From assembly GCA_034231615.1 (NCBI GenBank), contig CM067309.1, forward strand, positions 37,475,750 to 37,539,749: a DNA stretch of 64,000 nucleotides, read 5' to 3'. The translations under genes were made by a program, and so were the position numbers. Shown in pieces: positions 5,830 through 60,650 of this stretch. The stretch's first letter is position 1; the number at the start of each line of letters is the position of its first letter. This stretch comes from Meghimatium bilineatum. Lineage: Eukaryota; Mollusca; Gastropoda; Stylommatophora; Philomycidae. A model generated the notes under the pieces. The model made no database searches and was not told the DNA's origin. It was given only the letters and a program-made list of their open reading frames with translations.

Positions 5830-6148
5830 GCCTCTGCCGAAGACGGATGTGTCTGGCCATTAGAAAATAGAACTACGGCACAACTCATTTCAATTCTCGA
5901 CTATATCATGTTGGAAATCTAGTATGCCATTGTCCTGCTACAGGAGAGATCGAGCGGTAATTTGAGAATGAACGCTGAAGAAGAAAGAATAGATTGCCGA
6001 AGACGGATGTTCCAGACCAGTGGCACATATAATATGGCAACACAAAGCATTTCTATTCTCTGGATTATATCCCAGTGAAAATATATTAGAACCATTGTCT
6101 AGCTACAGGATGGATCCAGCGGTAATTTGAGAATGAACGCTGAAGAAG
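5830..6148 (+). mobile_element. Two head-to-tail SINE-B copies
   Basis: Each begins GCCGAAGACGGATGT and ends TTTGAGAATGAACGCTGAAG (about 5836-5985 and 5996-6148). TAGATTGCC flanks the first on both sides (9-bp TSD). The internal ATGTTGGAAATCTAGTA...GTCCTGCTACAGGAGAGATC block is the diverged form of the unit amplified at 26.7 kb. Confidence 0.8.
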
Positions 6149-6186
6149 ACTAGATATACTATGCTTTATCACACCCTATTTTTTCT

Positions 6187-13990: not shown

Positions 13991-14380
13991 TTGTTTGCTG
14001 TGGTCATCAACAAACCATCACATCTAGAGAATGTCTATGCTAGCAACCCCACCGACGACGGATGTGTCGGGCCATTGACGCAAATAAAACGGCGACACGA
14101 CGCACTTTCATTCTCTAAACTGCATCCTGCTGGAAATCTATAATGGATCATAGTCCCGATACAAGAGAAATCCAGCGGGAGTTTGAGAATGAATGCTGAA
14201 GAAGTATGCTAGCAATAAACGTTTGTTTTCTATGGGGTCATCAGCTGCCCATCACACATAGAGAGTTTCTATGCCAGGAATAAACCACTGGTTCATTATG
14301 TCGTCATCGAATGTTCACCATACGTTATAGCCTTGTATTAAGGCAACTGTTTATTCTGTGGTCATCAAATGACCAGTGGA
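13990..14380. repeat. ~65-bp diverged tandem repeat hosting SINE-B
   Basis: GGTCATCAACAAACCATCAC / GGTCATCAGCTGCCCATCAC / CGTCATCGAATGTTCACCAT recur at about 65-bp spacing once the SINE-B insertion is removed, each followed by (C/T)TATGCYAGSAATAAAC-like text in the first two. Confidence 0.5.
14047..14204 (+). mobile_element. SINE-B, full length
   Basis: Begins CCCCACCGACGACGGATGTG and ends TTTGAGAATGAATGCTGAAG. TATGCTAGCAA is duplicated at 14036-14046 and 14205-14215 (11-bp TSD). Its core reads GGAAATCTATAATGGATCAT, a diverged, single-copy version of the 57-bp unit. Confidence 0.9.
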
Positions 14381-22800: not shown

Positions 22801-22834
22801 ATTAACTATTACTCAATTTTAAGCGATACTTCTT

Positions 22835-22992
22835 CTTCGGCGTTAATTCTCAAACTCCCGCCGGATCTCTCTTGTAGCAGGACAATGACCCTACTAGATT
22901 TCTAGCAGGATGTAGTCCAGGGAACGGAAATGCGCTATGTCGATGTTTAATTTAAGCCAATGGCCTTACACATCCGTCTTCGGCAGTTTAAG
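22835..22992 (-). mobile_element. SINE-B copy
   Basis: TTCTCAAACTCCCGCCGGAT, TCTCTTGTAGCAGGACAATG, ACCCTACTAGATTTCTAGCA, GGATGTAGTCCAGGGAACGG and CACATCCGTCTTCGGC occur in the exact order seen around the 57-bp array, but with one copy of the core. Confidence 0.85.
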
Positions 22993-24441: not shown

Positions 24442-24924
24442 TCTGCAAGTATTGTAAAAACAATTTGTATTTTAAAATGTATTTTGTTTTAATTGTAAAA
24501 ACAATTTTTGCCAGACAAAAAATTGTGCAAAGAAAACAAATTTCATTTTTACAAATATATTTTTCTTATTTAGTACCACTTTAATTAGTTTTCAAAAATG
24601 AAATATTCCACTTTATACCACTTTAGTTTTTTAGTTTATTTATGCATCAATTTTATATATATATTTTTTATAAATTAATTTCCCACCTAAAATCAAAGTA
24701 TAGAGAAAAAGGGTAACACACCCAGAGAAACATTAACATACAACCGTTCCTAATTATTATTATTTTTTTTACATATTATACATACGTGAACCTAATACAC
24801 TTGAAATATTCAGTAAACATATTTTTATGTCGGAAAACTTCAGTGTAAATGAGGGTTAGCGGCAAGTGTGGACCAGAAGTGTCATAATCCGCCTGGGCCA
24901 CGACAATAAACTGGTGATACTTAC

Positions 24925-24999
24925 TGCATCGGCTGCCACTGGGTTGTCTGTGATGTCAAACACGACGGCAGTAGCGCCCCTTTGTACTGCTTTCTTTGC
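24925..24999 (-). CDS. znrf3: ZNRF3/RNF43 exon: ectodomain RGATAVVFD segment
   Basis: A 75-bp exon (25 codons) is framed by tttcctacag and GTAAGT. It encodes AKKAVQRGATAVVFD followed by ITDNPVAADA, nearly residue-for-residue the vertebrate ZNRF3 segment AKRAVQRGATAVIFDVSENP. It continues directly from the preceding exon's ...SIFGK, as in the vertebrate protein (...VLGKAKRAVQRG). It lacks an ATG and is too short for gene callers that need long ORFs. The segment is part of the extracellular protease-associated-like fold. Confidence 0.95.
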
Positions 25000-25524
25000 C
25001 TGTAGGAAATAGAAAATACAGTGCGACCAATTTTGGGTACTACAAGGATATATCCACGATTGTGGATAACAGTGGATATGTGAAAAATTCAGGGAAATTA
25101 TCTCAGAAATAAATGTGTGAGAAAATACTGACGTTATGTCATAATATATTATGTTATTCCATCTATACCAGAGGTTCCCAAACTGGTGTCTATATGGACT
25201 CCCAAGGGTCGATTTCGACTTGCAATGTCACTTGATATGTTAGATTTAAAAATTGGAAAATTGGGGGTGGGGGAATGAGATGTACTTTTTTCAATAAAGA
25301 TATGAATTAAAATAGTACATGTCCTTGTTACAATTGTCTACTCTACAAAAACCTGATCATAGCGAGCAGCACTGTGTCCGATGTAAAAAAAATCAATATA
25401 TTTGAAGTTAATGTGTTTAGGAAAATTCAATATCAGGCACGCAGGGGCTATGAGAAAAATAAACATCTGCAAGGCGTCTACAGGGCAAAAAGATTAGGTA
25501 TTCACTGATCAATAGGCATATCGA

Positions 25525-26680: not shown

Positions 26681-26698
26681 TCTTGAAAGAAAGAAATT

Positions 26699-27998
26699 CT
26701 TTTTCTTCTTCGATGCTCATTCTCAAACTCCCACTGGATCCCTCTTGTAGCAGGACCATGGTCCTACTAGATTTCATTCTCAAACTCCCACTGGATCCCT
26801 CTTGTAGCAGGACCATGGTCCTACTAGATTTCATTCTCAAACTCCCACTGGATCCCTCTTGTAGCAGGACCATGGTCCTACTAGATTTCATTCTCAAACT
26901 CCCACTGGATCCCTCTTGTAGCAGGACCATGGTCCTACTAGATTTCATTCTCAAACTCCCACTGGATCCCTCTTGTAGCAGGACCATGGTCCTACTAGAT
27001 TTCATTCTCAAACTCCCACTGGATCCCTCTTGTAGCAGGACCATGGTCCTACTAGATTTCATTCTAAAACTCCCACTGGATCCCTCTTGTAGCAGGACCA
27101 TGGTCCTACTAGATTTCATTCTCAAACTCCCACTGGATCCCTCTTGTAGCAGGACCATGGTCCTACTAGATTTCATTCTCAAACTCCCACTGGATCCCTC
27201 TTGTAGCAGGACCATGGTCCTACTAGATTTCATTCTCAAACTCCCACTGGATCCCTCTTGTAGCAGGACCATGGTCCTACTAGATTTCATTCTCAAACTC
27301 CCACTGGATCCCTCTTGTAGCAGGACCATGGTCCTACTAGATTTCATTCTCAAACTCCCACTGGATCCCTCTTGTAGCAGGACCATGGTCCTACTAGATT
27401 TCATTCTCAAACTCCCACTGGATCCCTCTTGTAGCAGGACCATGGTCCTACTAGATTTCATTCTCAAACTCCCACTGGATCCCTCTTGTAGTAGGACCAT
27501 GGTCCTACTAGATTTCATTCTCAAACTCCCACTGGATCCCTCTTGTAGCAGGACCATGGTCCTACTAGATTTCATTCTCAAACTCCCACTGGATCCCTCT
27601 TGTAGCAGGACCATGGTCCTACTAGATTTCATTCTCAAACTCCCACTGGATCCCTCTTGTAGCAGGACCATGGTCCTACTAGATTTCATTCTCAAACTCC
27701 CACTGGATCCCTCTTGTAGCAGGACCATGGTCCTACTAGATTTCATTCTCAAACTCCCACTGGATCCCTCTTGTAGCAGGACCATGGTCCTACTAGATTT
27801 CATTCTCAAACTCCCACTGGATCCCTCTTGTAGCAGGACCATGGTCCTACTAGATTTCATTCTCAAACTCCCACTGGATCCCTCTTGTAGCAGGACCATG
27901 GTCCTACTAGATTTCCAGCAAGATGTATTCCAGAGAATGTAATTGCACTGTATGCCATTTTATTTTGCGCCATTGGCCAGACACATCCGTCTTCGGCA
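26699..27998 (-). mobile_element. SINE-B copy with internal 21-unit expansion
   Basis: The outer ends are ordinary SINE-B: TTCTTCTTCGATGCTCATTC on the left, then CCAGCAAGATGTATTCCAGA ... CACATCCGTCTTCGGC on the right. AAAGAAAGAAATT is duplicated exactly at 26686-26698 and 27999-28011 (13-bp TSD), so the whole 1.3 kb sits in one insertion site. The core found once in other SINE-B copies is here repeated 21 times. Confidence 0.93.
26714..27913. repeat. 57-bp palindromic satellite, 21 near-identical units
   Basis: The unit is CATGGTCCTACTAGATTTCA + TTCTCAAACTCCCACTGGAT + CCCTCTTGTAGCAGGAC, 57 bp = 19 codons. The junction forms the perfect palindrome GGACCATGGTCC, flanked by GTAGCA/CTACTA. I noticed only two substitutions in the array (C>A near 27065, C>T near 27490). 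Open frames of about 410 codons on both strands are artefacts of a stop-free period divisible by three. Confidence 0.97.
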
Positions 27999-28259
27999 AA
28001 AGAAAGAAATTTAAAAAAAGAGAGCTGCCCACTCGCATTAGGAGACAGCTCGTATTCTTTGGAGACACTATGACAAGATGCGAGCGGAGCATAACGTGAC
28101 AACAACCAAGTTAAAGAGAAAATTATGGCATGAGAGATCGTCAATATCTTAAATAATTTGCAGAATTAGAATTAATTCTACACCTAACCCCCCCCCCCCC
28201 TTCCTAAACTCTGAAATCCCCCTTTCTACTCCGATGACACTTGTGACATTAAGTCGTGG

Positions 28260-42720: not shown

Positions 42721-44590
42721 GGTAAGAAACACTATTCAAAATTCACAATGTCACACAATTTAATTAAGTCATTTGCTGATGCCACCAAAGAGCCATCTCA
42801 GAGAAAGGCACCATAAACGGCTAATTCAACGACAATATGAAAGCCGAAAGATAACACCAGAAGAAGGGAAAAAGAAACCGACCAAAGTCAAGCCCATATT
42901 AAAATTAAAATAACACAAGTAGGAGGACAGGAAGCGTCACTGAAGCCAACTGGATGACCAGGTGGGGCTTCCAAATCAATCCATCCAAATCCATAGGAAT
43001 GCTGTTCAGCCGAGGTAACATCCTCAAGGATAGAAACCCAGATATTCAAATAAACGGCCAGCCAATCAAATTTGAGAAAACCACACGATTCCTTGGCATG
43101 ACCCTAGATCGGAGCCTGCGATGGGACAAACATATTAACAATATAGTTGACCACAGCAGAGGGGGGCTTAAACATGCTAAGATATATAAAAGGAAGTGGT
43201 TGGGGAGCGGACACGCAGACACTGCTCACATTCTACAAATCCTTTGTTAGAGGCAAAATGGAGTATGCGAACATTGTATATGAATCGTCCGCCCCATCAA
43301 ATACCAAAAAGCTGAACAATATCCAAAATAAAGCCCTAACCACAATAGCCGGGGTACCACCAATCACATCAGACGAAGCACTTCAAGTTGCCCTAGGTAT
43401 TCTGCCCATAGGGCTCAGAAGAAAGGAGCTAAGACTAAACTACTGGGTTAAGATTGGAAGTGACAGCACACACCCAGCCTACAAATCTTTCTATGAAGAT
43501 GTAAAGGAGGGTAGTTACAAGCTTACAAAGCCTAGATATCCAGCTGGATGGCGTACAAACCAGGAAAAACTACAACATTCAGATATCTGGGACCTGGTAA
43601 CAACTAGGCAAAACCACAAGGCGGATTGCCCTCCATGGGAACTTTTGCGAAAAAACAATCGATACACGATTAACGGAAAAACTTCCAAAAAATTATAAAG
43701 TCCAGAATAGGACCATCAAACACATTAACGATAACACACACACAATCATCTCAAAATATACACAGATGGTTCAAAAGGGGATGATGGTACTACTGCGGCA
43801 GGAGTCGTAATCCCAGAGAGAAGAATTAAAAGGGCATACAGACTCCCTAACAACGTTTCAATATTTTCTGCTGAGCTTACAGCCATACTGAAAGCACTAG
43901 AGCTGATAGGAGAGAACCCACCGGAGCATACCACGATCCTAACGGACTCCCTATCTTCAGTACAAGCGCTTCAACTTAAGAAAGAAAGTGAACGGCCCGA
44001 CCTAGTAGAAGACATTCTACGCATACACACATCCTGGCACAATAAAGGAAAACACCTCAGAATTATGTGGATTCCAGCCCATGTGGGTATAGCAGGGAAC
44101 GAGTTGGCCGATATCGAGGCTAAAGCAGGAAGAGCAATAACACAACCAGAAAAGCTAGCACATTCAATGTCCGAAATCAAATCTTTCATTAGAAAGGAAA
44201 TCAACAAAGAATGGACACTTCAATGGTCAAACAGCTCCAAGGGTAGACATGCCTTCTCCTTCCTAAAAACTCCTACAAGAAAAACTCAAATACGGGACGA
44301 GTTGAAAATTCCTAACAATAGGAAATACCTAAAGCTCAGACTAGGAGTTGCAGCGTTCAAAATAAATGAACCAATATGCGAGGAGTGTTACGAGACAGAC
44401 TCTATAGAGCACTACCTCCTAGACTGCGCCAAATACCGACAACAAAGAACGGCGATGCTAGATTTTTTCAAAAACAACAATATAGAGTGCAACCTGGTAA
44501 ACACACTAGGCCACAAAGTGGACGTAGATTCAAAGAAAATAGTCAAACAATATATATCTCGAACCAAAGAACTAATATAATAAGAAACGA
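42720..44590 (+). mobile_element. 5'-truncated LINE with RT C-terminus and intact RNase H
   Basis: RT thumb residues (WGFQINPSKSIGML; TTRFLGMTLDRSLRWDKHIN) are followed by one frameshift near 43190 and a second stop at 43698. An uninterrupted RNase H plus C-terminal domain then runs from about 43735 to 44580. Catalytic positions are present: YTDGS, SAELTAILKALE, LTDSLSSVQAL, WIPAHVGIAGNELAD. A Cys/His box (CEECYETDSIEHYLLDCAKY) ends the protein. The order RT-RNase H-CxxC fits I/R1/Jockey-group elements. The endonuclease and ORF1 are missing. Confidence 0.88.
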
Positions 44591-58770: not shown

Positions 58771-59004
58771 CTAATCCCAGCAGTGTTGCCACTATCTTCT
58801 CAGCAATGTTTCAGAAGTTGCATTTCATCAGTGTTGCCAATATCTTCTTAACATTGTATCAGAAGTTGTTATTATCTCCCCTTTCACTTGGGGAGGGGGG
58901 AATTCATATTATAAGAACTAGGTGGGGGGGGGGGGGGTGACAAAAAGTTGAAGTTGCAAAAATACTGTTTTATATATGACAAATAAATTGTCTGTTCTTT
59001 AGCG

Positions 59005-59155
59005 TTTATTCTGAAACTCTCTCTAGATTCCACTTGCAGATAACAATTGTCCTACTAGATTTCCAGCAGGATATAGTCCAGAGAATTGAAATGTGTTATG
59101 TCGCATTTTTATTTCTGCCAACCGCCGAATACATGGTGGCAATTAAACTGTCTTC
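59005..59155 (-). mobile_element. SINE-B copy
   Basis: TTATTCTGAAACTCTCTCTA, GTCCTACTAGATTTCCAGCA, GGATATAGTCCAGAGAATTG; single core. Confidence 0.75.
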
Positions 59156-60440: not shown

Positions 60441-60497
60441 ACGGTTGACAATTCTTCGAGCAAACAGAAGAATTGAATGGGTTATCTGCTTCTTCTT

Positions 60498-60650
60498 CCG
60501 CGTTCATTCTCAAACTCCCGCTGGATCTCCCTTGTAGTAGAACCATAGTCCTACTCGATTCCCAGCAGAATGTAGTACAGAGAATGAAAATGCGTTGTAT
60601 TGCCGTTTTATATACGAAAATTGCCCGAAACATCTGTATTCGGTGAGGAA
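60498..60650 (-). mobile_element. SINE-B copy
   Basis: TTCTTCTTCCGCGTTCATTC, TCAAACTCCCGCTGGATCTC, CTTGTAGTAGAACCATAGTC, CTACTCGATTCCCAGCAG. Its core, AACCATAGTCC..., is the closest unexpanded relative of the GGACCATGGTCC unit. Confidence 0.85.

Follow-up and report, generated by a model that had tools for sequence, protein, structure and literature searches.

The window (the whole 64,000-nucleotide stretch that was analysed, positions 1-64000) contains a SINE-like retroposon copy at 26699-27998, in which 21 tandem units of 57 bp occupy 26717-27913 with 2 substitutions in 1,197 bases. Nineteen of the 21 units are identical, and the two substitutions fall in units 7 and 14, one in either unit. 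TRF gave a row at 26717-27915 (period 57, 21.0 copies, 99% matches, score 2384), and with this score the array cannot be of chance origin. An exact 13-bp TSD, AAAGAAAGAAATT, bounds the copy at 26686-26698 and 27999-28011. The TSD score of the copy was 13, whereas controls with mismatched flanks reached at least 8 in 2.5% of 1,437 pairs; AAAGAAAGAAATT is purine-rich and is therefore somewhat weaker evidence than 13 random bases. The sense strand of the copy is probably the minus strand, because its low-coordinate end has a TTC run, equivalent to a (GAA)n-like tail when read in sense. The original prediction of 21 near-identical 57-bp units inside a SINE copy with an exact 13-bp TSD was borne out, as were the element coordinates given with it. 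The features are as follows.

26686-26698, unstranded: left TSD AAAGAAAGAAATT, an exact 13-bp match to 27999-28011
26699-27998, minus (probable sense): SINE-like retroposon copy with the array, from alignment to the family consensus and the TSDs
26699-26716, minus: unexpanded tail-side arm (SINE 3' end), with the TTC run at 26699-26711
26717-27913, unstranded: 21 tandem 57-bp units, from TRF and unit comparison
27914-27997, minus: unexpanded 5' part of the SINE, 12% from the consensus
27999-28011, unstranded: right TSD AAAGAAAGAAATT, an exact match to the left TSD

Classical satellites form heterochromatic arrays of many kb to Mb, and at 1.2 kb the window array is shorter than these. As in a SINE-derived satellite, its tandem units are a SINE segment and lie beside SINE end sequence. 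The array is a SINE-derived minisatellite. A minus-strand reading frame at 24856-25227 could be ZNRF3-like, as judged by eye.

The SINE family and its single-unit copies

Alignment to the family consensus recovered the unexpanded relatives that had been proposed at 22.8, 59.0, and 60.5 kb, together with three further full single-unit copies on the opposite strand (5.84-5.99, 6.00-6.15, and 14.05-14.20 kb) that had gone unmentioned. The window therefore holds six full or nearly full single-unit copies besides the array copy, plus shorter fragments. The six copies are listed below.

22830-22984, minus, oriented as the array copy: 91% to consensus
60490-60643, minus, oriented as the array copy: 85% to consensus
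58995-59134, minus, oriented as the array copy: 81% to consensus
14052-14204, plus, opposite to the array copy: 87% to consensus
5836-5985, plus, opposite to the array copy: 85% to consensus
5996-6149, plus, opposite to the array copy: 81% to consensus

In the host genome (1.61 Gb, 32 contigs), a single-unit 69-mer gave 1,308 + 1,279 = 2,587 matches with up to 3 mismatches. Twenty single-unit copies, picked among the near-consensus matches, were fetched; on inspection by eye, one end of most copies consists of CTTCGGC, or a sequence close to it, next to the flank, and the opposite end has a run rich in TTC. TSD scores of at least 8 were found for 11 of 19 single-unit copies and 9 of 18 array copies (window's included), compared with 2.5% of the 1,437 mismatched pairs; this count leaves out one nested single-unit copy (L086) and three array copies (L066, L071, and L072) whose end was too near or whose arm was poorly matched. 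The family thus has the properties of a SINE in that it is a short element bounded by TSDs of variable length, with a fixed 5' end and a simple-repeat tail. Its best B-box match has 4 mismatches and its best A-box match has 1, relative to the Pol III box motifs. We rejected an RNA gene origin of the element, as no Rfam hit at the gathering threshold and no tRNA was found in the window; Rfam hits for L073 were all below threshold. "SINE" is the best name for this element rather than a proven assignment.

In the nested copy (L086, G000:C1:120293750-120294250), the SINE seems to be inserted in or fused with a related, shorter family that has no middle segment, and fragments resembling this shorter family recur in the window. 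Two reading frames in the window, 43147-43698 and 43735-44580, look by eye like the 3' half of a LINE, the latter with an RNase H-like start; this could be a partner LINE of the SINE.

Recurrence and growth of the arrays

A genome search with 301 bases of the array returned 79 matches, merged by hand into 35 loci that include the window's; a further four matches, short and single, on C13, C4, C20, and C19 do not enter this tally. The 34 other loci were fetched, and 32 showed a TRF row matching the SINE (the exceptions were L033 and L036). Units were 56-58 bp long at 13 of these 32 loci and had other lengths, from 32 to 66 bp, at 19. The junction between two 57-bp units gave 880 + 902 = 1,782 genome matches with up to 3 mismatches, compared with 2 + 0 for the control. 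The 100 exact junction matches listed fall, counted by hand, into 24 loci on C1, C2, C3, and the first 32 Mb of C4 (~357 Mb), which would correspond to ~110 loci genome-wide if the rest is alike (extrapolated by hand). Both the 301-base search and the junction pattern are biased toward 57-bp relatives, which bears on the apparent share of this class; the 33-bp unit class is known from five fetched loci. The idea of a single event therefore had to be given up, both on these 24 loci and on the arrays of other unit lengths in other SINE copies, and the window array illustrates a known process well but is not a unique event.

We fetched 20 of the 24 junction loci and found 2 to 14 units at each (L066 runs past the fetched stretch). 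The longest SINE-derived arrays seen are ~3 kb: 3.3 kb at L052, 3.2 kb at C2:2453378, and at least 3.0 kb at L011. The array at L052, met in one of ten 6-kb background pieces, consists of 73 copies of a 45-bp unit with ~80% identity to the SINE. The C2:2453378-2456537 array (G000), about 3.2 kb, is the longest exact 57-bp junction run among the matches listed. Two loci ~150 kb apart on C24 (L031 and L032) hold the same two-unit array, which suggests a segmental duplication.

We also estimated the background of minisatellites in 124 kb, composed of the window and ten 6-kb pieces taken at round-number positions on ten contigs, counting arrays with a period of at least 10 and at least 2.8 copies. 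The window contains 28 merged arrays (9,068 bases) and the ten pieces 23 more, one of which is 4.8 kb long (L047); together, the 51 arrays cover 22,617 of 124,000 bases (18%), so the genome is rich in minisatellites, and a SINE array in the window is near expectation for this reason. SINE sequence makes up 1.7% of the remainder outside arrays (lengths summed by hand), from which 0.89 SINE arrays were expected in the 124 kb and 2 were seen (P = 0.22). The choice of the window for its SINE array tilts this test toward an excess, and even so none was found. We accordingly rejected a special liability of this SINE to form arrays, with the reservation that 124 kb is a small sample with which a few-fold enrichment is still compatible. 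Given that minisatellites form widely in this genome, the SINE may act as a passive substrate for them.

The median relative distance to the contig end was 0.21 for 56 array loci (the merged lists from the 301-base search and the junction matches listed) and 0.36 for the 100 single-unit copies listed (p = 0.003), the latter being near-consensus copies only and themselves skewed to the ends (p = 0.0003 versus uniform). On C1-C4 alone, with 24 array loci and 19 single-unit copies, the difference was not significant (p = 0.26).

Growth in place is well supported for the window array, since its units are near-identical (within-array divergence 0.003 for the first 12 units) while the unexpanded arm lies 0.12 from the consensus. 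The same contrast upholds the view that the expansion is recent, which had been drawn from the homogeneity of the units. In the other arrays, unit sequences are likewise locus-specific. When 66 units from 21 loci (no more than 4 per locus) were compared, a fraction of 0.67 had their nearest neighbour at their own locus; across 500 label shuffles, this fraction averaged 0.036 and never exceeded 0.114. By eye, at least two units had a variant from the consensus in common at 18 of 20 fetched loci, all except L063 and L064, although several loci have certain of these variants in common (A at position 17, for example). These results support independent growth of arrays in other copies of the family. 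The proposal that a satellite was born from one SINE insertion thus stands as to growth inside an inserted copy, but not as to a single event.

For 21 loci, within-array divergence was divided by twice the distance to the consensus, using rounded values; this ratio ranged from 1.0 (L063 and L064) to 0.03, the lowest value, in the window array. Because the ratio spans this range, growth is not tied to insertion, and arrays began or grew at differing ages of their SINE copies. Six small arrays (L053, L054, L057, L059, L063, and L064) have an inner divergence of 0.07-0.15, compared with 0.11 between loci; they fit a duplication at or soon after insertion, and this counts against later growth. Two arrays have mixed unit lengths: in L014, 56/57-bp units give way to a run of 14 units of 50 bp, and L071 combines 57-bp and 41-bp blocks. 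It follows that derived units were amplified in place. At L014 (G000:C5:18979400-18981700), the shortened 50-bp unit looks as if it were taking over in place.

We consider it probable that insertion with a TSD was followed by a 57-bp duplication and then by growth in place, and that this course was repeated independently in other copies of the family. The SINE-like retroposon would have been inserted most likely by target-primed reverse transcription, the TSD itself showing the insertion. A 57-bp piece adjoining the tail would then have been duplicated head to tail, presumably by way of the TTC repeats that bound it, and slippage or unequal exchange at the DNA level may have extended and homogenized the array. 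Repeats of this course in other copies would have occurred at times ranging from about insertion to very recent.

Origin of the 57-bp breakpoint

A 3-bp direct repeat, TTC, lies at both borders of the 57-bp unit. The consensus has 105 direct repeats of at least 3 bp (spacing at least 15), of which the unit-bounding TTC is one; for the longest, 7 bp with a spacing of 28, no matching period was found among 55 array rows, a sample that leans to 57-bp relatives. We rejected microhomology as the sole cause of the preference for 57 bp, 3 bp alone being too little. Nor would a preference for 57 bp be expected from slippage alone.

Folding of the consensus SINE RNA gives a single long hairpin at the 3' end (-55.2 kcal/mol, z = -4.4 versus 200 shuffles), and the 57-bp unit corresponds to the tail-side arm plus the tip of this hairpin. 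The original prediction had placed a palindrome at the centre of the unit and supposed that each repeat can form a hairpin. The palindrome is present, but it is already part of the single-unit SINE, and the folding model places it at the tip of the 3' hairpin that the SINE RNA itself forms; the satellite did not create it. In the family, GGACAATGGTCC is commoner, and GGACCATGGTCC is a variant of it that was present, by a hand count, in 10 of the 100 listed copies with a single unit. The 57-nt unit as single-stranded DNA folds no better than shuffles (z = -0.06), and one palindrome half is missing from the 38-bp units of L020, the 44-bp units of L039, the 45-bp units of L026, and the 51-bp units of L021. 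Expansion driven by the hairpin was rejected on these two grounds.

The main rival to duplication and growth at the DNA level is a putative re-priming of reverse transcriptase during retroposition, which would make the first duplication and leave later DNA-level growth to some copies; we regard it as possible but doubtful. The enzyme would start on the (GAA)n-like tail, copy the hairpin arm and tip, and stall, and the new TTC end would re-prime on GAA near the tail to give a dimer or oligomer at insertion. This would account for the shared 57-bp breakpoint, as the unit comprises the tail-side arm and tip of the predicted hairpin and the TTC-to-TTC junction joins GAA to GAA in RNA. It also agrees with L063 and L064, where the ratio is 1.0 and the two units have no variants in common. 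However, the ratio declines continuously to 0.03, which implies that many arrays grew long after insertion, and the tail is not reached by the 33-bp units, nor by those of 45 bp at L022 and L052. The more specific idea that the 3' hairpin makes the enzyme re-prime on internal GAA, so that a fraction of insertions started with a 57-bp repeat from birth, we hold somewhat more tentatively still. If re-priming is true, retroposition would seed minisatellites at a breakpoint set by structure, and the replication machinery would extend them later.

The spread by retroposition of a master SINE that already had the 57-bp duplication, with the arrays as its descendants, appears unlikely. It fits the occurrence of one junction at 24 loci among the exact matches listed, but no right-arm variant seen at least five times separates 33 array-bearing from 29 single-unit copies (the two lowest p values were 0.055, with none below 0.05; L014 and L072 were omitted for poor alignment). 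The within-locus variants described above and unit numbers that vary from 2 to >50 also argue against it, as does the absence of near-consensus dimers: a 126-mer had 0 genome matches with up to 3 mismatches, although the comparison with 2,587 single-unit matches is weak, as a 126-mer is harder to match than a 69-mer. A dimer subfamily was rejected on the lack of diagnostic right-arm variants and of near-consensus two-unit copies. That the copy number was inflated or collapsed in the assembly, from which alone the array is known, is very improbable, because the 20 fetched loci share the junction but differ in unit sequences and flanks, the 2 substitutions are placed within the window array, and a 1.2-kb array is easily spanned by long reads.

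Relation to known SINE-derived satellites

The window case belongs with the SINE-derived satellites (sSats), for which squamates already provide described cases and a limpet a suggested one. Vassetzky et al. (2023; PMC10702118), who searched 56 genomes, leave undecided, in the part of their account used here, whether sSats are restricted to squamates. According to that account, squamate sSats resemble the present arrays in that a SINE segment is repeated in tandem with terminal units reaching the SINE end, the segment differs among loci, the units number from a few to hundreds (up to 1000), and longer arrays are more homogeneous. They also prefer chromosome ends or subtelomeric regions, for which the evidence here is weaker. 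By the same account they differ in the SINE involved, no tRNA-like head being established in the present element, and in unit length (about 70-290 nt, compared with 57 bp here); the retention of both SINE ends around the array and the recurrence of one breakpoint in many copies set the present arrays apart. PcH-Sat of the limpet Patella caerulea (PMC11121367) is likewise a tandem repeat with a SINE-like segment in an invertebrate. Unlike the window array, it has a 179-bp monomer and makes up about 10% of the genome, mainly in pericentromeric regions, and its description, as far as drawn on here, does not include SINE-bounded nascent arrays. Minisatellites born in transposable elements are reported from human and mouse (PMC9659126, PMC3389668), where, in the portions cited, they lie inside SINE copies (Alu, B1) as here, with different elements and units.

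The present case enlarges the small set of described SINE-derived satellites, here in an invertebrate. More than 2,500 near-identical single-unit copies provide matched controls for dozens of arrays in one genome, and these arrays, of differing age and many with one breakpoint, constitute a natural experiment on the onset and growth of tandem repeats.
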